The position numbers and the translations under genes were made by a program. Shown here one piece after another: positions 10,935 through 41,519 of a DNA stretch of 64,000 bases. Every line of letters starts with the position of its first letter. Position 1 is the stretch's first letter. Origin of the DNA: Baekduia alba (lineage in GTDB: Bacteria > Actinomycetota > Thermoleophilia > Solirubrobacterales > Solirubrobacteraceae); NCBI RefSeq assembly GCF_028416635.1, contig NZ_CP114013.1, positions 5,704,001 to 5,768,000 of the forward strand, written 5' to 3'. The notes below the pieces were generated by a model. The model saw only the letters and a program-made list of their open reading frames with translations, did not search any database and was not told the DNA's origin.

Positions 10935-10957
10935 CGGAATGCTCCAACATCGAGACG

Positions 10958-14101: not shown

Positions 14102-15352
14102 GGGCCGCGAGCCGGCCGCGCGCGCCGGCGCCCAGCGCCGCGGCGCCACGTACACGCCCTTGACGCCGCGGTCGGACTCGACCTCGAAGCGATGGGCGTT
14201 CCAGTGGTAGTCGTAGCCGTACTCCCAGCCGGGCTCGTAGACCCCGACGTCGACCGCGTAGTCGCCGCTGGTCAGGTCCACCGGGTCGAACGCGACGCGC
14301 AGCGTCACGCCGTCCTCGTCCACCACCAGGTCGGAGCCGAGCTCCTCCGAGCTGGTCTCGAAGCACATGACCTGGTCCTCCAGGCGCGTGACGCCGACGG
14401 TCACGACCGCCGGCTTGGGCCCCTGGTGGGCGCGGATCGTCAGCTCCACGTTCAGCGGCTGGCCGCCCTGCAGCAGCTGGATGTCGCGACCGTCGGCGCT
14501 GGTGAGATGCACCTCGTCGATCGTCAGCTCCTGGCTGCCGAACCGGTTCTCGCCCAGCTTGAGCAGCGCGTCGTCGTCCTCGTCGCCCGCCGGCGTCACC
14601 GCCAGCGTGTCGAGCCGCATGCCGTCGCGGTAGGCCTCGACGACGTCCTCGGCGGTGCCCGCCGCGCGGACGCGCCCGGACTGCAGCCAGATCGCCTCGT
14701 CGCAGGAGCGCTCGACCTCGTCGAGGTTGTGGGAGGCGAAGACGACCGTCGCGCCGGCCGAGCGCAGCTCCTCGATGCGGGCCATGCACTTGGCCTGGAA
14801 GCGCGCGTCGCCGACCGCGATGACCTCGTCGAGGATCAGCGCCGGCGGGTCGAGCTGGGCGACGACGCCGAAGGCCAGCCGCAGCTTCATACCCTCGGAG
14901 TAGGTGCGCATCGGCGCGTCGGCGAAGTCGTCGAGCTCGGCGAACTCGATGACCGACGCCAGCACGCGCCGCGCCTGCGCGCCGGTCATCCCAGCGATCA
15001 GCGCCGCGGTGTAGGCGTTCTCGCGGCCCGTGAGCTCCAGGTCGAGCGTGTCGCCGAGCGACAGCACGGACGCCGTCCCGTCCGGCACCACGATCTCCCC
15101 GCGCGTCGCGCGGCCCAGGCCGGACGCCAGCCGCAACATGGTGGACTTGCCCGCGCCGTTGGCGCCGATGATCCCCATCATCCGGCCGTGGCCGACGCGC
15201 ATCGTCACGTCCTGCAGCGCCCAGCGCTCCTCGCGCCTGCGCAGCGCCTCCGGGACGCGCCGCGACAGGATCGCCCGGCTGGTGCGCGCGCCCTCGCCGG
15301 TCCAGCGCGGGTAGGACTTCCAGACGCCCTCGAAGGTGAGCGCGTGCCTCAC
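14087..15352 (-). CDS. polysaccharide ABC exporter ATPase (Wzt/TagH type)
   Basis: 421 residues from GTG 15352, chosen because it overlaps the permease stop as GTGA. The ATPase has Walker A GANGAGKS, the signature YSEGMKLRLA, Walker B LILDEV and the switch histidine in ASHN. About 160 residues follow after the ATPase (from about 260), forming a C-terminal beta-sandwich like that of Wzt, which in O-antigen systems recognises a modified chain end before export. It partners with the permease upstream to move a lipid-linked polysaccharide across the membrane. Confidence 0.9.
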   Translation of the reverse strand: MRHALTFEGVWKSYPRWTGEGARTSRAILSRRVPEALRRREERWALQDVTMRVGHGRMMGIIGANGAGKSTMLRLASGLGRATRGEIVVPDGTASVLSLGDTLDLELTGRENAYTAALIAGMTGAQARRVLASVIEFAELDDFADAPMRTYSEGMKLRLAFGVVAQLDPPALILDEVIAVGDARFQAKCMARIEELRSAGATVVFASHNLDEVERSCDEAIWLQSGRVRAAGTAEDVVEAYRDGMRLDTLAVTPAGDEDDDALLKLGENRFGSQELTIDEVHLTSADGRDIQLLQGGQPLNVELTIRAHQGPKPAVVTVGVTRLEDQVMCFETSSEELGSDLVVDEDGVTLRVAFDPVDLTSGDYAVDVGVYEPGWEYGYDYHWNAHRFEVESDRGVKGVYVAPRRWAPARAAGSRPSAAG

Positions 15353-16140
15353 AGGTTGTCCACCAGCCCGGGCCGCATCCGCTCGAACGCGAACCAGCCG
15401 GCGACCGCGAGGAGCACGGAGAGCGCCACGGTGCCAACGATGTGCCCGACGCTCGGATAGGGCAGCCCGAGCAGGAGCGCACGGTCGAGCTCGAGGAACG
15501 TGGTCATCGGGTTGAGCTGGAGGAGCCACTCGTACTGCTGTGGGATCCTGTGCAAGCTGTAGAAGACCGGTGTCAGGTAGAAGAGCACCATCAGGCCCAG
15601 GGTCACGATGTTCGGGACGTCCCGGACGTAGACGGAGGCAGGCGCGACGAGCCAGGCGAGGCCGACCATCAAGACCAGCTGCACCGCGAGGACGAGCGGG
15701 AACAGGAGCGCCGTGGCGTGCAGCTCACCGCTGAAGATCAGCATGAGCAGGAGCACCGGCGCGGCCATCAGGACGTCGACGAACGGCACGATCACCGCGA
15801 CCACCGGCAGCACGGCCGGCGGCAGCCGCGGCTGGAAGACGAGGTGCCGCTGGTCGATGAGAGAGGTCGAGGCCGCCGACAGCCCGGTGCTGAACGCGCT
15901 CCAGGCCACCAGGCCGCTGAACACGTAGACCGGGAAGTCAGGGATGCCGAGGTCGAGGACCGACGAGAAGACGAAGACGAGGACCGCCAGCTGGGCCAGC
16001 TGGCGGGCGAGCGGCCATGCCCAGCCGAGCATCGTGAACCGGTGGGCCGACGACAGCTCGCGCTTGACGAGGTGGCCGACGAGCTCGGGGTGGCGCAGCC
16101 CCAGGCGGCCGCCGGTCGTTCTGGGGATCGCGATGTCCAT
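15349..16140 (-). CDS. polysaccharide ABC exporter permease (Wzm/TagG type)
   Basis: 263 residues from ATG 16140 with six predicted membrane segments. Family marks include LVKRELSSAHRFTMLGWAW near the N-terminus, DLGIPDFPVYVFSGLVAW and, near the end, YLTPVFYSLHRIP followed by NPMTTFLELDRALL. An upstream start at 16179 is possible but would overlap the divergent glycosyltransferase start at 16155, so the shorter form is preferred. It is translationally coupled to the ATPase gene (4-bp overlap). Confidence 0.9.
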   Translation of the reverse strand: MDIAIPRTTGGRLGLRHPELVGHLVKRELSSAHRFTMLGWAWPLARQLAQLAVLVFVFSSVLDLGIPDFPVYVFSGLVAWSAFSTGLSAASTSLIDQRHLVFQPRLPPAVLPVVAVIVPFVDVLMAAPVLLLMLIFSGELHATALLFPLVLAVQLVLMVGLAWLVAPASVYVRDVPNIVTLGLMVLFYLTPVFYSLHRIPQQYEWLLQLNPMTTFLELDRALLLGLPYPSVGHIVGTVALSVLLAVAGWFAFERMRPGLVDNL

Positions 16141-19993: not shown

Positions 19994-20971
19994 CTAGCCG
20001 CGCTGGGCGTGGCGGCGGCGCAGCTCGATCGCGCCGCGCTGCTGCTCGACGCGGCGCAGCAGGCGGGCGCAGGCCAGCGCCGCGCGGGTGTTGCCCGCGG
20101 TGGTCGCCGCGCGCACGCCGGCGGTCAGCGCGGCCGAAGCCAGCGCCGCGGCGCGGGGCCGGCGGCAGAGGTGGACGAGCGCGGCGACCGGCGCAGGCAG
20201 CCCGGCCTCGAAGCGGTCGGCCGGCAGCGCGCCGGCGTCTTCGCCGTGGAGCTGGCTGACGAGCGTCCAGCCCGCGCCCTGGCTGCGCGCGTCGCGGACG
20301 AACGCGTCGAGCGGCCGCTGGTAGTGGTGGCGGGCGCGCAGCCCGCGGTCGAAGACGCCCGTCAGGCCGTGGGCCAGCAGGCGCAGGCCGAACTCGCGGT
20401 CCGGGTGGTAGCGCTCGTCGTAGACGTCGCTGCCGACGCCGACCTCGAGCACGGTCGCGCGGCGCAGGGAGACGTTGCCCGCCCAGAGGTGGCGCAGGAT
20501 CAGGTCGGGGTCGTTCTCGTAGCTCTCGCAGCGGCCCTCGTAGGCCTCGGCGTACAGCAGGACGCTGAACGCGTCGGGGTCGCCGGCCTGCGGCGGGACC
20601 GGCGGCATGTAGCCGAGCACGACGAGGTCGGCGCGGTCGGCGTGGCGGCGCGCGTGGCCGGCGACGAGGCCGCCCTCGGCCTCGACGTCGTCGTCGAGCA
20701 GCAGGACGACGTCGCCCGTGGCGCGCTCGACGCCCGCCTGGCGCGCGGCGCCCTCGCCGGCGTTCTCCTGCCAGACCGGGACCAGCTGCGGGTGCTCGGC
20801 GGTCATCGCCTCGAGGTCCTGCAGCGAGCCGTCGTCGCAGCCGTCGACGACGACCACGACCTCGCTCGCGGCGGGATCGGCCAGCAACGGCGCCAGGACC
20901 GAACGCAGCTGCGCGCGCCGGTTGTACGTGGGCATGACGACCGAGACGGTCGGCACCGGAGGCAGCGGCAT
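19994..20971 (-). CDS. GT2 family glycosyltransferase
   Basis: 325 residues from ATG 20971 (ATG 21010 is an alternative). Blocks: TVSVVMPTYNRRAQL, VVVVDGCDDGS, VVLLLDDDVEAEG (metal site), HLWAGNVSLRRATVL, DREFGLRLLAHGLTGVFD, RARHHYQRPLDAF. It is paralogous to the enzyme at 16155-17135. It is convergent with the SGNH-like gene (6-bp gap) and divergent from the beta-helix protein gene. Confidence 0.88.
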   Translation of the reverse strand: MPLPPVPTVSVVMPTYNRRAQLRSVLAPLLADPAASEVVVVVDGCDDGSLQDLEAMTAEHPQLVPVWQENAGEGAARQAGVERATGDVVLLLDDDVEAEGGLVAGHARRHADRADLVVLGYMPPVPPQAGDPDAFSVLLYAEAYEGRCESYENDPDLILRHLWAGNVSLRRATVLEVGVGSDVYDERYHPDREFGLRLLAHGLTGVFDRGLRARHHYQRPLDAFVRDARSQGAGWTLVSQLHGEDAGALPADRFEAGLPAPVAALVHLCRRPRAAALASAALTAGVRAATTAGNTRAALACARLLRRVEQQRGAIELRRRHAQRG

Positions 20972-21083: not shown

Positions 21084-22436
21084 ATGAAGGTGCGTTGCCG
21101 CCCCCACATGCCGTCCGCCGCCCTCGCACTGGCCGCCGTCGCCCTTATCCCGGCCGCCCCGGCGAGCGCGGCCAAGCCCAAGCTCTCCGTGTCCGCCAAG
21201 GCGGCCAAGGGCCAGATCAGCGTCAAGGTGAAGGCCTCGGCGGCCGGCCGTGTCGCCGTCGCCGTCAAGGGCTCCGGCTCGGGCACCGTGGCCAAGGCCA
21301 CCACCCAGCTGGCCCGCGGCAAGGTCCGCACGCTCAGCCTCAAGATGACCGGGTGCAAGCGCTGCACGAAGGTCGACGTCGTCGGAACGCTGACGGCGCC
21401 GGGCGCCAAGCCGGTCACGAGCACGGTCGCGGTGACGCTGCCGGCGGCGAGCACCACGGCGACGTCGCCGACCACGCCCGTGGCGACCAAGGCGCCGGCG
21501 GCCTCGGTGGTCCCGGCGACGAGCACGACGACCACGACGACCACCTCGACGCCGGCCAGCCCGCCCGCGACGACGCCCACGACCGTCGGCCCCACCACGG
21601 TCGCCGACGCGGCGGCCGCCGGCACGGCCACGACGACGACGCTCGCCTGGGCCCCGCCCAGGCTCACCAGCCCGATCACCGTCAAGGTCACCGACGCCAA
21701 CCGCAAGCTGGCGCTCGACAACACCAAGGACTACATCATCAGCATGCCGTCCACGCCGCTCACCGGCGGCTACGGCGTGGTGATCACCGGCGGCCACAAC
21801 GTGGTGCTCATCGGCGGCGAGATCGACATCCCGTGGCAGGGCGCCACCCCGCCGGTCAACTCGCGCCGCGCCCTGTACCTCCAGGGCCAGACCGGGACCA
21901 TGCACGTCGAGGGCCTGTGGGTCCACGGCAGCGACCTCAGCGAGGGCATCGACCTCGACGAGCGCCTCGGCGCGACCGTGCAGATCGAGAACGTCCGGAT
22001 CGACGCCGTCCACGCACGGGATGAGGTCGGCTTCACCGACAACCACCCGGACCTCATCCAGTCCTGGGGCGGCCCCAACGTCCTGCGCGTCGACCACCTG
22101 TCGGGCAGCAGCGACTACCAGGGCTTCTTCTTCGCGCCGATGCAGTTCGGCACCAGCGTGCCGGCGCTGTTCGACCTGCGCAACATCGACATCAGCGCGG
22201 TCGTCCGCAACAACGTGTTCTTCGCGGGCTACCTGCTGTGGCAGTCGTCGACGTTCCCCATGAACATCAAGAACCTGTTCGTGGTCGCCGACGCCAAGAA
22301 GACGCTGAGCGGCTCCGTCTACCCGAAGACCGGCGTGTGGACCGCCGCGACGGCCGGGACGCCGCCGACCGGCTCCTACGTGCCGGCGAGCCAGGTCGGG
22401 GTCGGCTACCGCAGCGCGGGCTACGCGGCGGCCTGA
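21084..22436 (+). CDS. secreted beta-helix-like protein with Thr-rich linker (family member A)
   Basis: 450 residues; a signal peptide (SAALALAAVALIPAAPASAA, with possible starts at 21084 or 21108), a Lys-rich beta domain (about 30-120), a Thr/Pro/Ala-rich linker (about 120-185) and a C-terminal domain of about 260 residues. The last shares with the proteins at 25816 and 39939 the blocks GGHNVVLIGGEI, PWQGA, QGQTGTMHVEGL, GIDLDERLGATVQ, HPDLIQSWGGP, LRVDHLSG and DYQGFFFAP, and ends in YRSAGY. The pattern of short strands with G and N turns fits a right-handed parallel beta-helix like polysaccharide lyases and hydrolases. No known family assigned; action on the locus polysaccharide is inference. 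Confidence 0.8.
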   Translation: MKVRCRPHMPSAALALAAVALIPAAPASAAKPKLSVSAKAAKGQISVKVKASAAGRVAVAVKGSGSGTVAKATTQLARGKVRTLSLKMTGCKRCTKVDVVGTLTAPGAKPVTSTVAVTLPAASTTATSPTTPVATKAPAASVVPATSTTTTTTTSTPASPPATTPTTVGPTTVADAAAAGTATTTTLAWAPPRLTSPITVKVTDANRKLALDNTKDYIISMPSTPLTGGYGVVITGGHNVVLIGGEIDIPWQGATPPVNSRRALYLQGQTGTMHVEGLWVHGSDLSEGIDLDERLGATVQIENVRIDAVHARDEVGFTDNHPDLIQSWGGPNVLRVDHLSGSSDYQGFFFAPMQFGTSVPALFDLRNIDISAVVRNNVFFAGYLLWQSSTFPMNIKNLFVVADAKKTLSGSVYPKTGVWTAATAGTPPTGSYVPASQVGVGYRSAGYAAA

Positions 22437-22456
22437 GCCTCCTAGAATGCGGGCAC

Positions 22457-23275
22457 ATGCCCGCTGCCGCGAGCGTCATCGTGCGTGCCAAGGACGAGGC
22501 CGCCGACATCGAGCGCTGCCTGAGCCGGGTCCGTGCCCAGACCGTCCCGGTCGAGCTGCTGGTCGTGGACTCCGGGTCCACCGACGGCACCCTCGACATC
22601 GCCCACCGCTACGCCGACCGCGTGATCGAGATCGCGCCGGCCGACTTCACGTTCGGCGGCGCGCTGAACACCGGCGCGACCGCCGCCGCCGCGCCGATAC
22701 ACGTCGCGGTCTCGGCCCACTGCTTCCTCGAGCGCGACGACTGGGTCGAGCGGGCGCTCGCGCACTTCGCCGACCCGCGCGTGGGCGGCGCGTTCGGGAC
22801 CCGGACGGGGCTCGACGGCCGACCGCTGAGCGCGCCGGCGACCGTCAGCGGTCCCGAGCCGCGGTCGGTCCCCTACTGGGGCTTCACCAACCACGCGTCG
22901 GCCTGGCGCGCGGAGACCTGGCGGGCGCTGCCGATCGACGAGGGCCTGCCGGCCTGCGAGGACCGCGAGTGGTTCTGGCGGGCGCTGGACGCCGGCTGGT
23001 CGTTCGTCGCCGACCCCGCGCTGTGGGTGAGCGTCGGGCACCGCCGCGACGCCGGCCTGCGGGCGCTCTACCGGCGCACGCGCAAGGAGGCGGCCGCGCT
23101 GTCGACGATCACGGGGCGCAGCGACTTCGACGCCCCGTCCGCCGTGCGTGCCTGGTGGGCGGAGATGCCGGCGGGCGGTCGCCGGCCGGCCCTCCAGCGC
23201 CTGAACTACCTGCGGGCGACCGAGCTCGCCGGCCGCTGGGCCGGGGAGCGCGCGGCACGGCGGGGTGCCGCATGA
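22457..23275 (+). CDS. GT2 family glycosyltransferase (rhamnosyltransferase-like)
   Basis: 272 residues. ASVIVRAKDEAADIERCL opens a GT-A fold, followed by LLVVDSGSTDGTLDIA and, in place of a classical DXD, FGGALNTGA and VSAHCFLERDDWVERAL, as in the RfbN/WbbL-like subgroup. The acceptor part has YWGFTNHASAWRAETW and CEDREWFWRALDAGW. It starts 20 bp behind the beta-helix gene, and its stop overlaps the flippase start as ATGA. Confidence 0.88.
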   Translation: MPAAASVIVRAKDEAADIERCLSRVRAQTVPVELLVVDSGSTDGTLDIAHRYADRVIEIAPADFTFGGALNTGATAAAAPIHVAVSAHCFLERDDWVERALAHFADPRVGGAFGTRTGLDGRPLSAPATVSGPEPRSVPYWGFTNHASAWRAETWRALPIDEGLPACEDREWFWRALDAGWSFVADPALWVSVGHRRDAGLRALYRRTRKEAAALSTITGRSDFDAPSAVRAWWAEMPAGGRRPALQRLNYLRATELAGRWAGERAARRGAA

Positions 23276-24819
23276 GCGTCGACCCCTTCCGCTCCACCGA
23301 CCCGATCGAGGACTCGCTCACCGACGAGGCGGCGCAGGAGCCGTACCCCACCGCCGACGCGTCGGCCGAGCGCCGGATGGGCGTCGGCGAGGTCCGGACC
23401 CGCGCGGTGCGCGGCGCCGTCAGCCTCGGCATCCGCAACCTCGTGGTCCGGGCCCTCAACCTGGTCGGGACCGTCGTCCTGGCGCGCCTGCTGGACCCGC
23501 ACGACTTCGGCCTGCTGGCCTTCGCGTTCGCCGTCAAGTCGATCAGCGACATGCTCGCCGCCGGCGGCCTGGCGGCCGGGCTGATCCGCCGCGAGGAGAC
23601 GCCGACGCGCCGCGAGCTCCAGGCGACGCTCGGCTTCCAGCTGACGACCACGACCGGCCTGGTCTGCCTGATCGCCGTCTGCGGCGCGATCTTCGGGGGC
23701 GCGGCCTGGGTGGCGACGCTGATGGCGGTGTCGCTGCCGATCTTCGCCCTGCGCGTCCCGACGATCGTGATGCTCGAGCGCAAGCTCGACTGGTCGCTGC
23801 CCGCCCGGGCCGAGATCGCCGAGACGGTCGTCTTCAACATCATCGCCATCGGCCTGGTCGTCGCCGGCGCCGGCGTCTGGGGCGTCGCGGCCGCCGCCAG
23901 CGCCCAGGGCGTCGTCGGCTCCTGGCTGCTGGTGCGCAACGGCGGCGTCGGCTTCCTGCGCCCGGTCCGCGACCCGTCGATCACGCGCCCGCTGCTGCGG
24001 TTCGGCATCCACTTCCAGGCGGTCCCGCTCGTCGGCGCGGCGCGCGAGCAGGGCACCAACATGGTCATCGCCGCCGTCGGCGGCGTGTCGATGCTCGGCA
24101 TCTGGTCGGCCGCCTACCGCGTGCTGCAGACGATGCTGCTGCTCCTGCAGAGCCTGTGGCGCGTCTCCTATCCCGCGATCGCGCGGGCGATGGAGGCGGG
24201 CGAGAACCCGCGGCCGATGCTCGAGCGGATCCTGGTGGTCACCGCGGTGCTGATCGGGCTGCCCGCCGTGTGGGTCGCCGGCAGCGCGCCCGACCTCGTC
24301 ATGGCCGTCTTCGGCCCGCGCTGGACCGACGCGATCGGCGTGCTGCCGTGGGGCGCCGCGGCGTTCATGATCCAGGGCCCGATCTCGACCATGGCGTCGG
24401 GCTTCCTGCAGGCGCGCGGCGACGTCGGGCGGATCGTCGTGGTCGTGCTGCTGCAGGCGGTGCTATGGATCGCGCTGTCGGCCGTGCTGATCCCGAGCGT
24501 GGGCGTCGAAGGCGTCGGCGCAGCGATGTTCGTGGCCTCGACGTTCTACGCGATCGGCAACGTGTGGCTGGTCAACCGCCACGTCCGGATCGCCGCGGTA
24601 CGGCCGATGGCCGGGCCGCTGCTGATCGCCACGGCCGCCGCGCTCGCCAGCCGCGTGGTGTGCAACGAGGTCGACCCGGCGCTCGTCGGGCTGATCGCCT
24701 CCGGCCTGGCCGGGACCGTCGTCTACGTCGCGCTGCTGGCGCTGCTGCGGCGCGCCGACGTGCGCACCGTCGCCGCCACGCTCAACCTCGCGCGGCGACC
24801 AGCGCCCGCGCCGAGTTGA
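23272..24819 (+). CDS. lipid-linked oligosaccharide flippase (Wzx / MATE-like)
   Basis: 515 residues: a cytoplasmic lead of about 45 residues, then 12-14 membrane segments. RNLVVRALNLVGTVVLARLL then DPHDFGLLAFAFAVKSISD is the typical N-terminal signature of the Wzx/polysaccharide-biosynthesis flippase family. It should turn the undecaprenyl-linked repeat unit to the outer face of the membrane. ATG 23272 overlaps the stop of the upstream glycosyltransferase by 4 bp. The 3' end overlaps the convergent pyruvyl transferase gene by 38 bp. Confidence 0.92.
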   Translation: MSVDPFRSTDPIEDSLTDEAAQEPYPTADASAERRMGVGEVRTRAVRGAVSLGIRNLVVRALNLVGTVVLARLLDPHDFGLLAFAFAVKSISDMLAAGGLAAGLIRREETPTRRELQATLGFQLTTTTGLVCLIAVCGAIFGGAAWVATLMAVSLPIFALRVPTIVMLERKLDWSLPARAEIAETVVFNIIAIGLVVAGAGVWGVAAAASAQGVVGSWLLVRNGGVGFLRPVRDPSITRPLLRFGIHFQAVPLVGAAREQGTNMVIAAVGGVSMLGIWSAAYRVLQTMLLLLQSLWRVSYPAIARAMEAGENPRPMLERILVVTAVLIGLPAVWVAGSAPDLVMAVFGPRWTDAIGVLPWGAAAFMIQGPISTMASGFLQARGDVGRIVVVVLLQAVLWIALSAVLIPSVGVEGVGAAMFVASTFYAIGNVWLVNRHVRIAAVRPMAGPLLIATAAALASRVVCNEVDPALVGLIASGLAGTVVYVALLALLRRADVRTVAATLNLARRPAPAPS

Positions 24820-25819
24820 GCGCGTCGTCGGCCGACGTCGCCATCCGCGTCAGCGGCGACGTGGCCGTGAAGGCCTCGTGGAACGTGCGCAGCTTGCCGT
24901 AGCCCGTGTCGACCAGCACGTGGGGCAGGTCCATCAGCGTCGCGACGATGTGGCCGTGCAGGCGGTCGGTGACGAGCACGTCGCCCTGCTCGAGGAGCGC
25001 GCGGCCGTAGGCGACGCGCTCGGTCGCCAGCGCGGCGCAGGCCGCGACCTGGAGCCCGGCGAGGGCGGAGACCGGCGGTGGGCGGCGCACGACCGCGCGG
25101 CCGACGCGCGTGGCGAAGCCGCGCGCGCGGCGCTCCCGCGGCCGCATCGGCGCCTGGATCTCGTCGAGCCAGTCGACGACGCGCACGGTCGGGTCGTCGG
25201 GCAGCAGGCGACCCCCCTCGCGCTCGTCGTCCTCGCGGGCCAGCCAGACGATCGGGGTCCGCGCCGGCGCGCGGCGCGGCACCGAGCGCAGCGCGAAGGC
25301 CATGTCGGGCGACAGCGCGGCCGAGGCGGCGAACGCGTCCCGCGCCGCGTCGAGGCTGCGCTGGTCGCGCAGCAGCAGGTGGAGGTCGCGGTGGCCGTCG
25401 AAGACCGCGCGCGCCCGGTCCAGCGCAGCCGGGTCGCGGAAGTGCATCGTCTGCGGGAAGGACACGATCCGGTGGCCGGGGAAGTCGCGGATCGTCCGCT
25501 CGCGCAGCTCCTGGTGGTCGACCCACAGGTCGCCGAGGTTGCCGCCGCCGTGCAGCAGGATCGTGCCGCGGTCGCCGAGCCGGGCGGCCAGGACGTCGGC
25601 GCGGTAGCTGTCGAGGTCGCAGGCGTAGGCCACGCGGATCCCGCGGCGGCCCAGCCACGCGACCTCGCCGGCGTAGATCGCGGCGTCGCCCACGTTGGGG
25701 TGGTTGGGGTAGCCGACGATGGCCACGGGCGCGCCGGCGTCGACGAGCGGGCCGAGGACGGCGTCGATCCGCTCGTTCAGGGCGGCGACGAGCGGCTGGG
25801 CGGTGGGTGCAGGGGTCAT
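24782..25819 (-). CDS. polysaccharide pyruvyl transferase family protein
   Basis: 345 residues of the CsaB/WcaK family. Blocks: VAIVGYPNHPNVGDAAIYAG near the start, ILLHGGGNLGDLW, RIVSFPQTMHF, LHLLLRDQRSLDAAR, LSPDMAFAL and DVLVTDRLHGHIVATLMDLP near the end. Family members transfer pyruvate from phosphoenolpyruvate to a sugar as a ketal, giving a negative charge. It is the last gene of a six-gene minus-strand run and overlaps the upstream beta-helix gene by 4 bp (ATGA). Confidence 0.9.
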   Translation of the reverse strand: MTPAPTAQPLVAALNERIDAVLGPLVDAGAPVAIVGYPNHPNVGDAAIYAGEVAWLGRRGIRVAYACDLDSYRADVLAARLGDRGTILLHGGGNLGDLWVDHQELRERTIRDFPGHRIVSFPQTMHFRDPAALDRARAVFDGHRDLHLLLRDQRSLDAARDAFAASAALSPDMAFALRSVPRRAPARTPIVWLAREDDEREGGRLLPDDPTVRVVDWLDEIQAPMRPRERRARGFATRVGRAVVRRPPPVSALAGLQVAACAALATERVAYGRALLEQGDVLVTDRLHGHIVATLMDLPHVLVDTGYGKLRTFHEAFTATSPLTRMATSADDALNSARALVAARG

Positions 25820-26730
25820 CGGTATCCCGGGGAGCGGTACGTCGCGCCGGCGTGGGGGCTGGCGAAGAGGGTGCGTGGGGCGTGGCGCGACAGGCGCGCG
25901 CCGGGCCACCAGCGGGGTGAGGGCCACATCGTCTGGTAGACGGCGCGGCCACGCGGCGAGGTCAGGCGCACGTCGCGCAGCCGGACGCGCGAGGCCCTGT
26001 CGCGCCAGAGCAGGTAGGCGGAGCTGGCCGACCCGACGAGGTCGACGTGGCGCAGGTCGATCCGCGACGTCTGCCCCTTGGCGAACTGCGCCGGGAGCAG
26101 GAAGAAGCCCTGGTAGTCGGTTGCCGCGCTGAGGCGGTCGACGCGCAGGACCTTGGGTCCGGCCCACGACTGCAGGACATCCGGATGCGTGTCGCTGAAC
26201 GTCTTGTTGTCCCGAGCGGTGACGCGATCCACGCGGATGTTCTGCAGCTGGACGGTGGCGCCGAGGCGCTCGTCGAGGTCGATGCCGTCGCCGAGGTCGC
26301 CGCCCAGGCGCAGGCCCTCGACGTGCACGGTGCCGGTCTGGCCCTTGAGGAACAGGCCGCGGCGCGCGCTGCCGCTCGGCGGCTGGGCGCCCTGCCACGG
26401 CACGAGCACCCGGCCGCCGCGCAGGACGACGTTGTGCCCGCCGCTGATCGTCAGGCCGCCGGCGACGCGCACGGGCGCGCGCGTCAGCACGATCCGGTAG
26501 TCGCGCCGGGGATCGAGGTCGAGCTTGGCGCGCACCGCGGTGACGTGGATCGTCTGCGGGTGGCGCAGCGGCGGCGGCGGCCAGGCCAGCTTCGGGCCGG
26601 CCGCCGCGGCGCCGCCTGACGGCGACGAGTCGCCGCCCGCGAGCAGCAGCGCGGCGCCGGCGGCCAGCGCGACGACGGCGACCGCCATCACCGTGCGCCA
26701 GGCGGTCGCGCTGACACGGAGGCGGGTCAC
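25816..26730 (-). CDS. membrane-anchored beta-helix-like protein (family member B)
   Basis: 304 residues from GTG 26730, which overlaps the upstream ligase stop (GTGA). A single hydrophobic segment (about 13-32) gives a signal anchor; a short Ser/Gly/Ala linker leads to the same roughly 250-residue domain as members A and C: ISGGHNVVLRGGRVLVPWQG, LKGQTGTVHVEGL, GDGIDLDERLGATVQLQN, DTHPDVLQSWAGPKVLRVD, DYQGFFLLPAQF and a terminal GATYRSPGYR. It lacks the Thr-rich linker and N-terminal extra domain of its paralogues. The coupling to wzz/ligase genes ties it to polysaccharide assembly. Confidence 0.8.
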   Translation of the reverse strand: MTRLRVSATAWRTVMAVAVVALAAGAALLLAGGDSSPSGGAAAAGPKLAWPPPPLRHPQTIHVTAVRAKLDLDPRRDYRIVLTRAPVRVAGGLTISGGHNVVLRGGRVLVPWQGAQPPSGSARRGLFLKGQTGTVHVEGLRLGGDLGDGIDLDERLGATVQLQNIRVDRVTARDNKTFSDTHPDVLQSWAGPKVLRVDRLSAATDYQGFFLLPAQFAKGQTSRIDLRHVDLVGSASSAYLLWRDRASRVRLRDVRLTSPRGRAVYQTMWPSPRWWPGARLSRHAPRTLFASPHAGATYRSPGYR

Positions 26731-28226
26731 GCCTCCGCTGCGGCGGCGACCGCGCGGTTGCGGGCGTTGCGCGCGGCGATGACCAGCGCGCCGAGCGCCC
26801 AGACCAGGTGGCCGGGCCCTGCCTGGATGAAGTACGCCTGGATCACCTGCATGGGCAACAACAGGATCAGCGCCGCGAGCAGCCCCTGCGCCATGGCGCG
26901 GGGCACCCCTTCGGTCTCCTTGATCGTCCGGACGCTCTCACCCGCCAGGGCGAGCACGAACGCCGCGTAGAGGATCAGCAGCGGGATGCCGCCGCGCAGC
27001 GCCAACGTGATGTACAACGACTCGGTGAAGCGCCAGGTGATCTCCGGCGGGATGTCCGGCCCGTAGCCGGTCACGAGCCGCCCGCGCAACGCGGGGAAAT
27101 ACTGATCGGTCCAGATCTGGTAGCGGTAGGTGAGCGTCTGCGGGACCAGCGCGCTGCCCGACGCCGCCGGGTCGCGCGCGAACTGCTGGTCCAGGCGCCC
27201 GGAGATCGGCCCGCTGAACGCCAGGGCGCCGGCCAGGCAGGCGACGATGAACCACAGCGACACGACGCGCAGCTTGCGCCGCCAGAACGCGACGAGCGCG
27301 ATCGCGACGAGCACCGACAGGATCGGCCCCATCGTGAACGTCGCCATCAGCGCCAGCGCGCTGAGCGCCAGCACGGCCCACGTCGAGGAGCGGCGGCGCA
27401 CGTCGTCGCGCTCGCCCAGGCACACCGCCGCCGCGACGCAGACGAGCAGGAAGAAGTACGCCGAGGCGGGCTGCGCGTGCGAGAACGGGCCCGTGACGCG
27501 CGCCACGCCGCCGGACGCGGCGTCCTCGAAGTTGTCGCCGCCGGCCACGTTGTTCAACAACGAGATGACCGGTCCGACCTTCGCGTACTGCAACAGGGCC
27601 ACGAGCGCGGCGACCACGCCGCCGCCCATCAGCCACCACAGCGCGCGGCGGACGAGCTGCGGCGTCGGCAGCGAGCTGACGACCGCGCGGTAGAGCAGGA
27701 AGAACTGGAGCGGCCCGAGCAGCGTGCCCAGGCGCGTGCTGTTGACCGCGTCGCCACGCTGGTGCAGGTCCCACAGCCCGAAGCCGAGCGTGACCAGGGC
27801 GTACAGCAGCGCGACCCAGTCGAACGCGCGCCAGCGCGGAACGACGCGGCGGTCGGCGCTGAACAGCACCACGATCGCCAGCCCGCCGATCAGCAGCTCG
27901 CTGAGGCGCAGGCCCGGCACGGGCAGGCCGCGGCGCAGGCCCGCCGCCACCGGCACGACCGCGACCAGCGCGATGCCGCCGATCCACGGGCGCTCGAGGA
28001 CGACGAGCGTGCCCGCGACCCCGAGCAGGACGGCGATCGCCGGCAGCGCGCCCTGCGTCGCGGCGGCGCCGAGCAGCACGGCGCCGGCGATCAGCACCGC
28101 GGTCATCTGGAGGCCGGGGTGGCGCCAGACGTGGACCGCCCGGTCGGCGGACGGCAGGCCGCGCCGACCCGCCGCTTCCCCAGGCGCCAGCGCAGCCGGG
28201 CCGATGCTCGGCGCGGCGGCGCTCAT
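26727..28226 (-). CDS. O-antigen ligase/polymerase-family membrane protein (Wzy/WaaL-like)
   Basis: 499 residues with about 12 membrane segments. FSHAQPASAYFFLLVCVAAA and, in the large outer loop, GSALVPQTLTYRYQIWTDQY, VTGYGPDIPPEI and TESLYITLALRGGIPLLILY fit the conserved H.E/G-rich loop of the Wzy_C family. It would join repeat units or attach the finished chain. Coupled at both ends by 4-bp overlaps to the beta-helix gene and the Wzz-like gene, the classic polymerase-plus-length-regulator pair. Confidence 0.88.
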   Translation of the reverse strand: MSAAAPSIGPAALAPGEAAGRRGLPSADRAVHVWRHPGLQMTAVLIAGAVLLGAAATQGALPAIAVLLGVAGTLVVLERPWIGGIALVAVVPVAAGLRRGLPVPGLRLSELLIGGLAIVVLFSADRRVVPRWRAFDWVALLYALVTLGFGLWDLHQRGDAVNSTRLGTLLGPLQFFLLYRAVVSSLPTPQLVRRALWWLMGGGVVAALVALLQYAKVGPVISLLNNVAGGDNFEDAASGGVARVTGPFSHAQPASAYFFLLVCVAAAVCLGERDDVRRRSSTWAVLALSALALMATFTMGPILSVLVAIALVAFWRRKLRVVSLWFIVACLAGALAFSGPISGRLDQQFARDPAASGSALVPQTLTYRYQIWTDQYFPALRGRLVTGYGPDIPPEITWRFTESLYITLALRGGIPLLILYAAFVLALAGESVRTIKETEGVPRAMAQGLLAALILLLPMQVIQAYFIQAGPGHLVWALGALVIAARNARNRAVAAAAEA

Positions 28227-29401
28227 CGCGAGGCGATGTCCTCCTCGTGGCGCTCGGCCGGAGCGTCGGCGTCGTGCGCGGAGGGCGCAGGCGCGTCGGC
28301 GGCGCTCGCGGGCGCCCAGCTCACCGTCTCGCCCGTGTCGGTCGGGGCCGCGGCGGCACGGCGGCGCGAGCGGCTGGCCTTCTTGACCATCAGCACCCAC
28401 TGGGGCGCCAGGCCGAGGCGCTCGTAGTGGTGGACGGCCGCGACGAGGCGCGCGACCTTCATGCCCTGCTGGGCCACGACGATCCGCGCGCCGCCGGCCT
28501 CGGCGGCCTGCAGCGTCTCGAGCTCCTGCGGCCCGGTGCCGCCGAGCACGACGCCCGGCGTCGGGGCCGCGTCGGCCAGGCCGCCCTTGGCGCCGGCGGT
28601 CGCCGTCCACAGCGCGTCGCCCGCGTCCTGGAGCTCGACGATCTGGCCGTCGGCGGACGGCAGCAGCGCGATCGTCGACCGGCGGCCGTCGCCGGTCGCC
28701 GCCTGCCCGCCGAGGCGCTGGACCAGCGCGGCGCGGGCGGAGGCCGAGAGGTCGCCGAGGCGGCTGGCCGGCAGGTGCGCGGCGAGCTCGACGTCGCCGG
28801 GCTCGTCGATGCGCGGATCCGCGCGCTCCCAGGCGATCAGGATGACGATGCCGAGGAAGAGGCCGAGGATGATCGCCAGCGCGATGCTCGCCGACGGCGA
28901 GATCGTCTGGTCGGTCGAGAAGCCCTGGTCGCGGCTCGGCGCGCGCACGACGCGCATCGAGTCGGCGCCGATCGAGTCGGAGGTCGGCCGGTCGCCCGTG
29001 ATGGCGCCGACCGTCAGCGCCGCGCCGCGCACGGCGTCGTCGGCGTCGTCGCTCTTGAACGCGAGCTTGATCAGGCCGGTGCCGGTCAGGTGCGACGCGG
29101 TCAGGTCGTTCTCGACGTCGCCGCTGCTCATGCCGAGCTTGCCGCCGACGTAGCGGGTGACGCCCGGATCCTGCGGGATCAGCGTCGCGTAGGTGCTGGC
29201 GAGGTTGATCGCCTCGGAGGCGTCGCCGGGGCCCTTGGCGTCGGCGCCGGAGCTGACGAGCACCAGCGCGGAGCTCGTGTAGGAGTTCGTGCGCGCGCCG
29301 CTGAGCGCCGCGGCGGCGGCCGCGCAGATCGCGATCGCGGCGACGATGACCCATGCGCGGCGGCGCAGGGCCCTGAGTACACGTATGCGGGGAACGGTCA
29401 T
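28223..29401 (-). CDS. Wzz-like polysaccharide co-polymerase with degenerate tyrosine-kinase-like domain
   Basis: 392 residues from ATG 29401. Membrane segment 1 (about 12-33) and segment 2 (SIALAIILGLFLGIVILIAW, about 170-190) flank a periplasmic-type domain with LASTYATLIPQDPGVTRYVG, as in chain-length determinants. The cytoplasmic C-terminus keeps a fold reminiscent of BY-kinases (GGARIVVAQQGMKVARLVAA, then HYERLGLAPQWVLMVKKAS), but there is no Walker A or B motif and no Tyr-rich tail, so it should not phosphorylate. Overlaps ligase and GT genes by 4 bp. Confidence 0.8.
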   Translation of the reverse strand: MTVPRIRVLRALRRRAWVIVAAIAICAAAAAALSGARTNSYTSSALVLVSSGADAKGPGDASEAINLASTYATLIPQDPGVTRYVGGKLGMSSGDVENDLTASHLTGTGLIKLAFKSDDADDAVRGAALTVGAITGDRPTSDSIGADSMRVVRAPSRDQGFSTDQTISPSASIALAIILGLFLGIVILIAWERADPRIDEPGDVELAAHLPASRLGDLSASARAALVQRLGGQAATGDGRRSTIALLPSADGQIVELQDAGDALWTATAGAKGGLADAAPTPGVVLGGTGPQELETLQAAEAGGARIVVAQQGMKVARLVAAVHHYERLGLAPQWVLMVKKASRSRRRAAAAPTDTGETVSWAPASAADAPAPSAHDADAPAERHEEDIASR

Positions 29402-30381
29402 GAGCGGATGGCCTCCTCGATCGCGGCGTGCTGCGACGCCCAAGTCTCCTGCTGGTGGGCAAGGGCCGCGGCGGTGCTCGACGCCAGGTCGTCGTAGCGC
29501 CGGCCCACCGCCGCAAGGGCGTCGGCCAGCGCTTCCGGCTGCGCCACGGCATGGACAGCGTAGGGGAAGGTCGAGCGCAGCACGGGCCAGTCGCTCGTGA
29601 TCAGCGGGCGGCCGGCGTAGACGGCCTCGTAGCCGGAGCGCACGACCGACGTCGCCTCGGTGGTCAGCGTCATGACCGCGTGGGCCTCGCGGATCGCCTG
29701 CCGGTAGGCGTCCCGGCCCAGGAAACCGACGAACTCGACGTTCTGGGGCGCCCGCTCGACCAGGCCCGCGGGCGCGCGCCGGACGTCGCCGGTGATCAGC
29801 ACGTCGACGTCGGGAGTCTGACGGGCGGCCTCCACCACGGCCTCGACCGGCTCGTCGGGCGCGAAGACGCCCACGTAGAAGACGCGCAGGCGGCCGTCGA
29901 GCGCCGGCGCGGGCGTCGGCACCAAGCCCTCGGTCGGCGCCTCGTGGACCTCGGTGGCGCGGCCGCCCCAGGTCCGGACCTCGTCGGCGAGCTCCGGCGC
30001 GGTGACGAGCACCAGGCGCGCGCGGCGGGCGAGGAAGCGATGGACCGGCAGCAGCAGCTTCCAGATCCCGGCGTCCTTGCGGCCGAACGAGGCCGGATGG
30101 CTGTCGAGCAGCACCGGGGTGCGCGCGGCCAGGCCGTAGAGCCAGGCGATCAGGCCCAGGAAGACCGGCGGGTTCTGCGTGATGACCGCGCGCGGCCGGC
30201 GGCGCGCCAGGAACGCCACGGTGGCGACCGTGTTCAGGACGTAGCGCAGCGGCGCGGTCTGCCGGCCCTTGAGGCCGTTGCCGTCGAAGCGCTGGGCGAC
30301 GCCGCCGAGGCTCGCGGCGATCTCGTCGGCGCGCTCGGTGCGGTCCGTCCAGGCCAGGAAGGCGACCGGCGGGGCGCTCAC
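29398..30381 (-). CDS. GT4-like glycosyltransferase
   Basis: 327 residues from GTG 30381 (overlap GTGA with the upstream gene). The protein is a two-Rossmann GT-B fold: VAFLAWTDRTERADEIAASL, AVITQNPPVFLGLIAWLYGL and LLDSHPASFGRK in the N-domain; LRVFYVGVFAPDEPVEAVVE, VEFVGFLGRDAYRQAIREAH and SGYEAVYAGRPLITSDWPV in the donor-binding C-domain. No signal peptide. Acceptor and donor unknown. Confidence 0.82.
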   Translation of the reverse strand: MSAPPVAFLAWTDRTERADEIAASLGGVAQRFDGNGLKGRQTAPLRYVLNTVATVAFLARRRPRAVITQNPPVFLGLIAWLYGLAARTPVLLDSHPASFGRKDAGIWKLLLPVHRFLARRARLVLVTAPELADEVRTWGGRATEVHEAPTEGLVPTPAPALDGRLRVFYVGVFAPDEPVEAVVEAARQTPDVDVLITGDVRRAPAGLVERAPQNVEFVGFLGRDAYRQAIREAHAVMTLTTEATSVVRSGYEAVYAGRPLITSDWPVLRSTFPYAVHAVAQPEALADALAAVGRRYDDLASSTAAALAHQQETWASQHAAIEEAIRS

Positions 30382-31574
30382 GCCAGCGTCACCGCGGCCT
30401 CGTCGATCGCCGCGCCCGCGGCGACGGCGCGGACCACGGCGCCGATGCGCTCGGCGAACGGCTGGCGGTCCCAGCGCAGGGCGTGGGTCCGGATCGCGGC
30501 GGGGTCGTAGGCGCCCGGGTCGAACGCGCGCAGCGCGTCGAGCAGGCAGCCGGCGGTCTGCTCCGGGAACGTCTCGCCGGTCACGCCGGGCAGCACGGTG
30601 TGCAGCGCGCCGCCGGCGCCGTAGGCCAGCACCGGCCGGCCGCAGGCCGCGACCTCGACCGGGATCAGCCCGAAGTCGTCGCGGCTGGGGAAGATGGTGG
30701 CCTTGCAGTTCTGCATGGCCTTGACGACCGCGTCGTCCTCGAGGTGGCCGAGGAACGTGACGTTCGGCGGCGCCATGGCCTGCAGCTCGGCCATCGCCGG
30801 GCCGTCGCCGGCGATGACGAGCCGCTCGTCCGGCAGCGCGCGGAACGCCTCGAGCGCTAGCGACACGCGCTTGTAGGGCTCCACCAACCGGCCGCAGATC
30901 AGGTAGTAGTCCTCGGGCGGCTCGTCGGAGGGCACGAAGAACGAGCAGTCGACGGGCGCGCCGACGACGATCGCGCGGCGGTCGTAGAACTCCTCGATCT
31001 GGCCCGCCACGTACGGCGACTGCGTCAGGTAGGTGTGCACCTGCTGGGCGGCCTTGCGGTCGACGCGCCGGTTGTGGGCGGCCATCGCCCGGAACGCCAT
31101 GCGCGCGGCGCTGTTCGGCGCCTTCTCGTCCTCGTAGTGGCCGGTCATCGACCACGCGAAGCGCAGCGGGCTGTGGCAGTAGCAGACCTGCGGCGCGTCG
31201 TTGCGCGTCCGGAACAGGTGCGCGAAGGCGTAGGACGAGCTGAGCACGACGTCGGCGTCGTCGAGCCGGTGGGCCTTGACGACGGCGGGCAGCATCGGCG
31301 CGAGGACGCGGTAGCGGCGCAGCAGCGCGTCGTGCTGAGGCAGCACGCTCGTGAAGCGATCGGCGACGCCCATGCGGCGCGCGACGGACTCCCGGCCCAG
31401 GACCGCGGTCAGCGGCGCGTCCGGGAACGCGGTGGTGAGCTCCTGGGTGACGCGCTCGGCGCCCCCGTAGATCTCCATGAAGTCGTGCGTGATCGCGACG
31501 GCGGGTGCAGGCGTCGCGGTCATGCCGGCCGCACCGTCCCGCGCACCGGCGTCCGCCGGCGTGAGGTCGAGCAT
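30378..31574 (-). CDS. GT4 family glycosyltransferase
   Basis: 398 residues from ATG 31574; a TTG at 31595 and ATG 31523 are alternatives. ATG 31574 is preferred because a -10-like CATAAT (complement of 31581-31586) ends exactly 6 nt before it, suggesting a leaderless start. The N-domain has THDFMEIYGGAERVTQEL and VCYCHSPLRFAWSM, the C-domain DYYLICGRLVEPYKR and FPSRDDFGLIPVEVAACGRP, typical of mannosyl/rhamnosyl GT4 enzymes. It is the first gene of the overlapping minus-strand run. Confidence 0.88.
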   Translation of the reverse strand: MLDLTPADAGARDGAAGMTATPAPAVAITHDFMEIYGGAERVTQELTTAFPDAPLTAVLGRESVARRMGVADRFTSVLPQHDALLRRYRVLAPMLPAVVKAHRLDDADVVLSSSYAFAHLFRTRNDAPQVCYCHSPLRFAWSMTGHYEDEKAPNSAARMAFRAMAAHNRRVDRKAAQQVHTYLTQSPYVAGQIEEFYDRRAIVVGAPVDCSFFVPSDEPPEDYYLICGRLVEPYKRVSLALEAFRALPDERLVIAGDGPAMAELQAMAPPNVTFLGHLEDDAVVKAMQNCKATIFPSRDDFGLIPVEVAACGRPVLAYGAGGALHTVLPGVTGETFPEQTAGCLLDALRAFDPGAYDPAAIRTHALRWDRQPFAERIGAVVRAVAAGAAIDEAAVTLA

Positions 31575-39938: not shown

Positions 39939-41408
39939 TCAGCGGTAGCCCGGCGACGTGTAGACGGCGCCGGCCGCGGCCGAGGACACGAACGGGCCGC
40001 CCGGCGGCGTGCCGCCGGTGACCGAACCGGTGACCGGCAGCTTCGGCCACGAGGCCGTGTTGCCGGTGACCTTCGCCGGGCAGCCGGCGTCGTAGACGTT
40101 GGGCCACACGCTCGTGCCCAGGAGCTTGCTCGCGCTGGGCTTCACGTACACGTTGCTCAGCGTGGTGACCGGCGCGCTGCAGCCGTTGCTCAGCCACAGC
40201 AGGTAGCCGCCGTCGGCGGCGCCCACGTCGTCGTAGGCGAGGTCGACGTTGCTGAGCTCCATCGTCCCGATCGGGCCGAGGTCGGGCTTGGCGAAGATCC
40301 CCTGGTAGTTGGAGTCGGCGCTGAGGTGGTCGACCCGGAGATCCTTGACGCCGCCGTAGGGCTGGACCACGTCGGTGTGGCTGCCGGCGGCCGAGCCGCG
40401 CAGGCTCGAGGCGCGCACGTTCTCGAGCTGGACGGTGGCCGCGGGCGCCGAGATCCGGATCGCGTCCGCGGTGTAGCCGGTCGAGCCGTCGATCCACAGC
40501 CCCTCGACGTGCACCGTGCCGGCGTTGCTGCGCAGCTGCAGCGCCGCGTCCTCGCCCGAGTTGGCCGGCAGCTTGATGTGGCCGCCCATCACCACGACGT
40601 TGCGCCCGCCCTCGATCCCGAGGCTGCCGTTGTGCGTGTAGGAGGGCAGCTTGATGATGTAGTCGCGGGCGTTGTCGAGCGTGTACCACTGGTCGCCGTC
40701 GGCGACGGCGATCGTGGTCGGCGCCACCAGCGCCGGGGCCGGCCAGCGCAGGGTGCCGCCGCCGGGCGTGGCGCCGCCGCCGGTGCCGGTGGGCGTGGTG
40801 CCGGTCGTGGTCGTCGCGCCGCCGGGCGTGGTCGTCCCCGTGCCGGGCGTCGTGAGCGCGCCGCCGATCGTCCCGGGGTCGGTGGAGGACCCGTCGCCGG
40901 GCGCGATCCGGGCGGTCGTCGTCAGCGCCACCGTGTCGACGTAGAGCCGGCGCTTGCAGCCGCGGCGCGCGAGCGCGTGGCTCATCGAGATCGTGACGCG
41001 GTGCGGCCCGGCGGCGAGCGCGCGCCTGATCGCCAGCGTCCGGTAGCGCGTGAAGGCGATCCGGCGGTTGAGGATGAGCTTGTGGTCGACGCTGACGCGC
41101 AGCACGGGTGCGCCGCCGCAGCGCTTGGCGCGGACGCGCAGGGCCAGGTGGTCGGCGGGCGCGCCGAGCGTCGCGTCGCCCGTCAGCGCGGCGCGGGCGC
41201 TGAGCATCATCGTGTGGCCGCCCTCGGCGGAGCGCTCCTGGATGACGCGCGCGGCCTTCGAGGGGTGGGTCAGCTGCTCGCCGCCCAGCGTCACGAGGGC
41301 GGTCGGCGGCTGCTGGGCGGTGGCAGCGAAGGCGGTCGCCGCGCCGCAGGCCAGCGAGAGCAGGAGCGTGGGCACGGCGAGACGCTGGGCGGTGGGGTGA
41401 CCGGGCAT
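39939..41408 (-). CDS. secreted CBM60-like plus beta-helix-like protein (family member C)
   Basis: 489 residues from ATG 41408. Signal peptide (VPTLLLSLACGAATAFA), then a domain with HLALRVRAKRCGGAPVLRVS, FTRYRTLAIRRALAAGPHRV and GCKRRLYVDTVAL, the pattern of Ca-dependent xylan-binding modules (CBM60/36). A Thr/Gly/Pro linker follows (about 190-235), then the beta-helix-like domain shared with the proteins at 21084 and 25816 (EGGRNVVVMGGHIKLP, NAGTVHVEGLWIDG, HTDVVQPYGGVKDLRVD, NYQGIF) and the same ending, GAVYTSPGYR. The carbohydrate-binding module supports a glycan substrate for the whole family. Convergent with tetR. Confidence 0.8.
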   Translation of the reverse strand: MPGHPTAQRLAVPTLLLSLACGAATAFAATAQQPPTALVTLGGEQLTHPSKAARVIQERSAEGGHTMMLSARAALTGDATLGAPADHLALRVRAKRCGGAPVLRVSVDHKLILNRRIAFTRYRTLAIRRALAAGPHRVTISMSHALARRGCKRRLYVDTVALTTTARIAPGDGSSTDPGTIGGALTTPGTGTTTPGGATTTTGTTPTGTGGGATPGGGTLRWPAPALVAPTTIAVADGDQWYTLDNARDYIIKLPSYTHNGSLGIEGGRNVVVMGGHIKLPANSGEDAALQLRSNAGTVHVEGLWIDGSTGYTADAIRISAPAATVQLENVRASSLRGSAAGSHTDVVQPYGGVKDLRVDHLSADSNYQGIFAKPDLGPIGTMELSNVDLAYDDVGAADGGYLLWLSNGCSAPVTTLSNVYVKPSASKLLGTSVWPNVYDAGCPAKVTGNTASWPKLPVTGSVTGGTPPGGPFVSSAAAGAVYTSPGYR

Positions 41409-41519
41409 CGTGACGGACGGACGGAAGGGCGCCTGCTGGAGCACAGTCTGGCGCCCAGGCGCGCCAAGTGGCAATCCCCTGTGTTGGGGGTGATCGCCGC
41501 GTGCCTCCGCACGCCGCCG

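Follow-up and report, generated by a model that had tools for sequence, protein, structure and literature searches.

WceF of Pantoea stewartii is a right-handed beta-helix stewartan hydrolase encoded inside a Wzy-dependent exopolysaccharide cluster, and it has a phage counterpart (PMC7949094). WceF acts on the strain's own polymer, and wceF knockouts are reported to make longer chains (PMC7949094). VexL of Achromobacter denitrificans is counted, by description only, among the closest known systems. Beta-helix enzymes in exopolysaccharide loci and on phages are an already known kind of protein. Here, these systems are compared with three proteins, A, B, and C, encoded in a 64,000-nucleotide stretch of the Baekduia alba genome (contig NZ_CP114013.1, positions 5,704,001 to 5,768,000), which in its entirety is called the window. 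To our knowledge, exopolysaccharide assembly in such environmental bacteria has been little studied.

Like WceF, the family of A, B, and C combines a beta-helix, in this case predicted, with a place in a Wzx/Wzy polysaccharide locus and a phage counterpart. Unlike WceF, which is a trimer with tailspike-like N-terminal domains, family members consist of a domain of ~258 residues behind a signal-like or membrane segment. On balance, A, B, and C are probably beta-helix proteins exported to act on the polysaccharide of their own locus. They likely trim or remodel it as endo-acting enzymes, in the manner of WceF, with catalysis being the part that we infer. As far as the searches go, four things are new: the family at the sequence level, the signature that marks it, the repeated association of several copies with one GT4/Wzy/Wzx system in separate lineages, and the presence of clear homologues near virion genes. 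Tentatively, and with some doubt, we propose an unnamed family of polysaccharide-cutting beta-helices with its own active-site signature (acid, HxDxxQ, YQ), which is a regular and often multi-copy part of one Wzx/Wzy system across lineages and has moved between cells and phages on more than one occasion. If this is true, cells would trim the polymer and phages break through it by one and the same means, and the cell and phage versions of one sequence family could be compared on the same substrate. A small, genetically marked family would also offer a handle on polymer structure and length control and a possible source of depolymerases.

The shared domain, its predicted fold, and its conserved residues

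An earlier, sequence-only reading of the window had proposed three open reading frames (ORFs) sharing a domain of about 250 residues. All three are present, A on the forward strand and B and C on the reverse strand (Table 1). The common domain spans ~258 residues on the C-terminal side of each protein, and the remainders differ. When the own genome (5.86 Mb) was searched with A, B matched at E 7.1e-69 (45% identity) and C at E 2.1e-37 (38% identity), and A, B, and C were the sole matches at E<=0.001. The GC content at third codon positions of the three ORFs is 0.95-0.99, as expected of real genes in this genome. The sequence blocks named in the earlier reading are present, except that C has GGRNVV instead of GGHNVV and AGTVHVEGL instead of TGT.HVEGL, and lacks DERLG. 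The proposed C-terminal ending, Y(R/T)S(P/A)GY, is found in each protein (YRSAGYAAA in A, YRSPGYR in B, and YTSPGYR in C), and HxDxxQ and YQG are equivalently placed (H321/Y345 in A, H182/Y206 in B, and H344/Y368 in C).

The B domain was modelled with AlphaFold2 from an 11-row alignment. The model (predicted local distance difference test (pLDDT) 86.9, predicted template modelling score 0.89) is nearly all beta, and the domain is predicted to be a right-handed parallel beta-helix of the pectate-lyase/tailspike type. The solenoid anticipated from the sequence is therefore also predicted by AlphaFold2 and by structural comparison with VIA, in which the top match was a pectate lyase (Z 17.3, root-mean-square deviation 3.5, 221 aligned residues, 9% identity). 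The best 50 VIA-align rows (Z 14.6-17.3) are mostly pectate/pectin lyases, tailspikes, alginate lyases, and polygalacturonases, and also include the surface proteins PfbA and Vag8. Thus, the predicted fold resembles pectate lyases (PL1, PL3, PL9), PL6 alginate lyases, and tailspike depolymerases, but sequence identity in these rows is 6-13% and none of the 13 members scanned had a Pfam match to any of these families. In the model, the fold class is clear, and no particular known family stands out.

By sequence, no characterised family was matched in Pfam, NCBIfam, or PDB, which agrees with the earlier claim that the family is unnamed. Among the window proteins, the shared domain had no convincing Pfam or NCBIfam family at E<=1, the Pfam models of pectate lyases PL1/PL3/PL9 gave no match at that threshold, and PDB sequence searches with the domain returned no fitting family. 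Flagellin PDB profile matches (E 0.0015-0.9) disappeared with a wider alignment and were rejected as chance. WceF was not among the PDB profile matches at E<=10, with the presence of a WceF entry in that PDB copy unchecked; neither WceF nor VexL stood out in any match list, which excludes nothing. No description of the family was found in the literature, going by titles and abstract beginnings in a non-exhaustive survey.

Outside the common domain, export signals and the membrane anchor were assigned from hydrophobicity and by eye, not by a trained predictor. A has a hydrophobic segment from residue 12 with an AXA-like end (judged by eye), and the N-terminal segment of B reaches a maximum Kyte-Doolittle value of 2.5 over 19 residues. 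The N-terminal segment of C, a possible carbohydrate-binding module, matched CBM60 at E 0.038, under the curated cut-off; the segment had no PDB sequence match, and its fold was predicted with low confidence (pLDDT 38). Two Cellulomonas members of the family gave CE2_N matches (E 3e-4 and 4e-3), under the curated cut-offs.

Residue conservation was assessed in an alignment of 44 distinct domains, from which fragments (L013, L081, L083) and duplicates (L072, L082, L076) had been dropped; positions are those of the B domain (P0003 residue number less 46). All 44 domains have D138 and Q141. The HxDxxQ block, noted earlier in the three window proteins, is conserved far beyond them: H(x1-3)DxxQ occurs in all 44 domains, as HxDxxQ in 36 and HxGGDxxQ in eight. 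Position 102 is acidic (Glu/Asp) in 42 of the 44, and position 92 is Glu in 42 and Asp in two. Y160 and Q161 are each found in 41, and the three domains without YQ are viral. In the model, the acid at 102, H136-D138-Q141, and Y160-Q161 lie at the starts of strands 102-107, 138-142, and 161-165, on three successive rungs.

Distribution and genomic linkage of the family

A profile search of genome contigs with a 3-row alignment detected four loci, in Cellulomonas aerilata, an uncultured Cellulomonas, and a Euzebyaceae metagenome-assembled genome (MAG); B alone, as a single-sequence query against genome contigs, gave no match. With an 11-row alignment, the family was found in 7 of 297 genomes of the order of C. 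aerilata, five of them multi-copy, with five members each in C. aerilata (G765) and the uncultured Cellulomonas (G766). A genome search found three copies in the congener G628. By tblastn, members were located on plasmids of two Skermanella species, including a Skermanella rosea member fused to RTX repeats, and a partial match on a Rhizobium plasmid was obtained (E 1e-6). A 20-row alignment yielded 14 viral-contig loci, among them two pairs of duplicates and a copy of the G859 prophage, and tblastn against INPHARED phage records gave no match for the three members tried. The family is rare, occurring in 2/61 near relatives. In a sample of 399 genomes from the own class, four matched and two, the own genome (G000) and G628, hold full members; G611, a contig-end fragment covering the first 58 positions only, and G660, a PF13229 protein, were not counted. 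A phylum-wide search with B (4/396 genomes) returned the own genome and three weak matches confined to the N-terminal part (within residues 4-88), each with an internal stop, which were likewise not counted.

Among the individual loci, C. aerilata contig C17 (L019, L020) carries five members, some with differing C-terminal additions and one with a long Pro-Thr repeat linker. On the Euzebyaceae MAG contig (L022 64-843 and 5368-6321), two members alternate with transposase-like and sulfotransferase-like genes (translations judged by eye). A second S. rosea plasmid copy (L115 7963-8931) is annotated as hypothetical and adjoins ISAs1 transposase genes.

A block of GT4/Wzy/Wzz/GT2/Wzx genes recurs around the family. 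Members in C. aerilata, G766, G815, and G826 sit within related blocks that contain Wzy-, GT4a-, GT2-, and Wzx-like genes, and those in G818, G777, and G938 do so in part. Co-location was tested for 33 members in 11 genomes (the Skermanella plasmid, G611, and G660 left out), counting only Wzx matches over the cut-off and using rounded genome sizes except for G000. A member lies <=10 kb from a Wzx gene in 8 of the 11 family-positive genomes, compared with 0.32 expected under uniform placement (P 1.3e-11), the genomes having been picked for holding the family and not for position. Without the window genome and its congener, the count is 6/9 (P 5e-9). The genome survey thus bears out the predicted co-occurrence with Wzx/Wzy loci. 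Relatives of the glycosyltransferase GT4a at E<=1e-40 were found in 4 of the 297 genomes, all four among the seven that are family-positive (P 1e-7; P 5e-6 without the centre genome G765); the family and GT4a searches were taken to cover the same genome samples from their shared handles and equal numbers.

In the congener G628, nearly the whole block around A and B is retained. Over the aligned proteins, B is 80% identical between the two genomes (domain 83%), Wzy 84%, and Wzx 81%. The pyruvyl transferase (window 24782-25819 versus L024 3056-4081) is only 37% identical, with neighbours at 80-84%, as if the gene in this slot had been replaced between the congeners. B therefore keeps pace with the polymerase and flippase, not with pyruvylation. 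The ratio of nonsynonymous to synonymous substitution rates (dN/dS) against the congener, estimated by the Nei-Gojobori method, which is rough at this GC content, is 0.31 for B, 0.34 for Wzy, and 0.38 for Wzx. Purifying selection on B, close to that on Wzy and Wzx, supports a maintained function. The 4-bp overlaps noted earlier for B were confirmed as GTGA with the Wzy gene upstream and ATGA with the pyruvyl transferase gene downstream.

Members also occur near virion structural genes, at L064 (the same prophage as L076), L068, L073, L081, and L083; the window members do not. In the G859 prophage, the genes ahead of the member are of terminase, portal/protease, and minor-tail-like type; ahead of one G815 member stand genes for tape-measure, tail, and virion structural proteins. 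On viral contig L073, a tape-measure gene lies ~5 kb upstream of the member, and in L081 and L083 head protease and major head genes stand shortly upstream of the family gene. Scans of L070, L075, and L079 gave no informative PHROG match, and each of the two prophage members scanned had no match to PHROG tail families. In a maximum-likelihood tree of the 44 domains, the phage members imply at least two changes between phage and cell when well-supported branches are considered, and four under parsimony. A and B group together in one clade (95/95), and C is placed elsewhere with weak deeper support. Prophage L064 shows the order terminase, portal/protease, minor tail genes, and family member over 7646-16014, and the same member occurs on IMG/VR contig L076/L084.

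By sequence comparison, the family is a divergent relative of a PF13229 subset that has HxDxxQ. PF13229 itself was matched over the curated cut-off by 0/13 members (the three window proteins and P0006 scanned at E<=1, nine others at E<=0.1). In eight genomes, the seven family-positive ones and G660, there were 37 PF13229 matches, 30 of them with loci (L085-L114), which after removal of five without a callable gene and three repeats left 22 distinct genes. HxDxxQ is present in nine of these 22, compared with 0.34 expected by shuffling; two of the nine (HLDGAQ) have the motif in a different context. L100, one of the five uncallable loci, is the gene of L014 and carries HTDALQ. Over acid-GI...HxDxxQ...G, the family profile aligns with six PF13229 proteins that have HxDxxQ, namely five of the nine plus L014 (hhalign probability 89%, E 2.3e-6 from one comparison, 72 columns); as they were picked for the motif, this shows a common layout and not an unbiased rate. 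HxDxxQ followed by QG within 10-30 residues was found in 0/22 PF13229 genes, and L014, read separately, has QG and lacks YQ. A PF13229 subgroup (L089, L090, L097, L102, L112) shares the motif H[STV]D[PA]IQ.YG, with no clear PDB relative for the one searched, and may stand for a broader, uncharacterised group that shares the putative active site. For part of the large PF13229 group of beta-helix proteins, most of which are uncharacterised, the HxDxxQ signature would provide a putative active site open to testing.

Candidate functions

The recurrence of the family close to polysaccharide export genes in other bacteria and to virion genes of phages suggests, without proving it, that the family binds or trims surface sugar chains. 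The role in glycan processing or docking put forward in the sequence-only reading is supported by the predicted fold, the conserved HxDxxQ, and the Wzx/Wzy linkage; enzymatic activity is the part that goes beyond them. Since the locus has a pyruvyl transferase, the polymer is probably acidic. In the proposed mechanism, B, membrane-anchored and translationally coupled to Wzy, would meet the growing chain as it emerges, and the secreted A and C would work in the released matrix. Their action would set chain length or release the polymer. Acid 102, H136, D138, Q141, Y160, and Q161, on successive rungs, may meet on one sheet face as a carbohydrate cleft. The chemistry may be hydrolysis, lyase elimination, or epimerisation, and the conserved acids beside His and Tyr would be compatible with the first two. 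In the phage versions, the same domain on the virion would bind or cut the same kind of polymer.

Several observations weigh against these proteins being locus-dedicated trimming enzymes. No member found here has a known activity, and the cleft was read from strand boundaries only, not from coordinates. Foldseek with the B model gave nothing at E<0.001 (best E 0.024 in PDB and 0.017 in a viral library), and no catalytic residue can therefore be transferred from a known enzyme. In two of the three YQ-less viral members the acid at 102 is missing as well, and such losses could be expected of a protein that only binds. As for linkage, 16 of the 33 members do not lie within 10 kb of a Wzx gene, and none does so in G767, G777, or G859. 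In the seven genomes searched for PF13229 as a control, 7/32 PF13229 matches lie <=10 kb from Wzx versus 14/25 family members; by genome, with G660 left out, the control gave 4/7 (0.32 expected, P 7e-5). Leaning towards Wzx loci is thus a trait of beta-helix proteins generally in these genomes, and is stronger in the family. In the own class, GT4a relatives (E<=1e-40) occur in 4/399 genomes, of which G000 and G628 have the family and G208 and G528 have no family match; the relatives in the latter two have clearly weaker E-values (39% and 34% identity, E 4e-44 and 3e-42). Finally, dN/dS is higher for A (0.61) and C (0.57) than for B, and C lies outside the operon of B.

The main alternative is that the proteins bind or dock glycans without catalysis, with a helix face that holds the polymer and keeps it attached to the cell (through the membrane segment in B and the linker regions in A and C) and with phages recognising the polymer by the same fold. 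The anchor-like N-terminus of B would suit this role, as would the additional regions outside the helix that linkers attach to A, C, and some Cellulomonas members, the absence of YQ and acid 102 from some viral members, the location of the L081 and L083 family genes a short way behind head genes, and the presence of PfbA and Vag8 among the fold matches. However, 41 of the 44 domains retain the full set of six polar residues, more than binding usually needs, and the VIA rows are mostly polysaccharide-active enzymes, although fold alone shows no function; we regard pure binding as rather unlikely.

Alginate epimerases share the fold (alginate epimerase/lyase 8ja4, Z 15.1) and carry RTX repeats, as does one Skermanella member. 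The family might accordingly comprise modifying enzymes that do not cleave, for example C5-epimerases of the AlgG/AlgE kind, and alter sugars in the finished chain. This is improbable, as the window proteins matched no alginate C5-epimerase (AlgE/AlgG) model in Pfam or NCBIfam at E<=1, and such a role would presuppose uronic acid in the polymer. The position of some members near virion genes and the phage/cell changes required by the tree would also fit an origin by capture, in which the host retains phage receptor-binding proteins as decoys or as a block against competing phages. Against such an origin, the ordered arrangement of family, Wzy, Wzz, GT4, and Wzx genes across several genomes, the 4-bp overlap of B with Wzy, and the dN/dS of B, which matches that of Wzy, point to a role in polymer biogenesis and make capture a very slim prospect.

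Features of the window and its neighbouring genes

The gene order in the window is Wzt and Wzm transporter genes, GT2, esterase, GDSL-like (below cut-off), GT2-like, A, GT2, Wzx, pyruvyl transferase, B, Wzy, Wzz, GT4, and GT4 (GT, glycosyltransferase). Table 1 lists the features around A and B, together with C.

Table 1. Coordinates of family members and neighbouring genes in the window
Feature	Position	Strand	Remarks
GT2-like glycosyltransferase gene	19997..20965	-	divergent from A; found by hand; 84% identical to equivalently placed G628 gene
Member A, 450 aa	21084..22436	+	signal-peptide-like N-terminus, ~90-aa beta-rich-looking segment, Thr/Pro-rich linker, predicted beta-helix domain
Predicted beta-helix domain of A (common to A/B/C)	21630..22433	+	sequence alignment
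HPDLIQ motif of A (H321-Q326)	22044..22061	+	
GT2 glycosyltransferase after A	22457..23275	+	
Wzx-type flippase (PF13440)	23272..24819	+	
Polysaccharide pyruvyl transferase (PF04230)	24782..25819	-	
Member B, 304 aa	25816..26730	-	membrane-anchor-like N-terminal segment and predicted beta-helix domain
Predicted beta-helix domain of B (common to A/B/C), 258 aa, part modelled	25819..26592	-	
HPDVLQ motif of B (H182-Q187)	26170..26187	-	Tyr206-Gln207 one rung further on
Wzy/O-antigen ligase-type polymerase (PF04932)	26727..28106	-	start uncertain
Wzz-type chain-length protein (PF02706)	28223..29401	-	
GT4 glycosyltransferase GT4a	29398..30381	-	close relatives track the family
Second GT4 glycosyltransferase	30378..31574	-	
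Member C, 489 aa	39939..41408	-	signal-like N-terminus, ~150-residue possible carbohydrate-binding segment, Gly/Thr linker, predicted beta-helix domain
Predicted beta-helix domain of C (common to A/B/C)	39942..40751	-	
HTDVVQ motif of C (H344-Q349)	40362..40379	-	

Elsewhere in the own genome (G000 C1), three PF13229 beta-helix genes, at 4564197, 4752875, and 4763843, lie <=10 kb from other Wzx genes. C and a nearby carboxypeptidase-regulatory-like gene (window 39939-42563) stay neighbours in both congeners, apart from the B operon. A single 1140-aa frame at window 7512-10934 joins GT2, methyltransferase, and polysaccharide deacetylase domains. A second Wzy_C-type gene (window 32731-34662) lies ~4.6 kb from the first and adjoins an Alg14/GT28-like gene.

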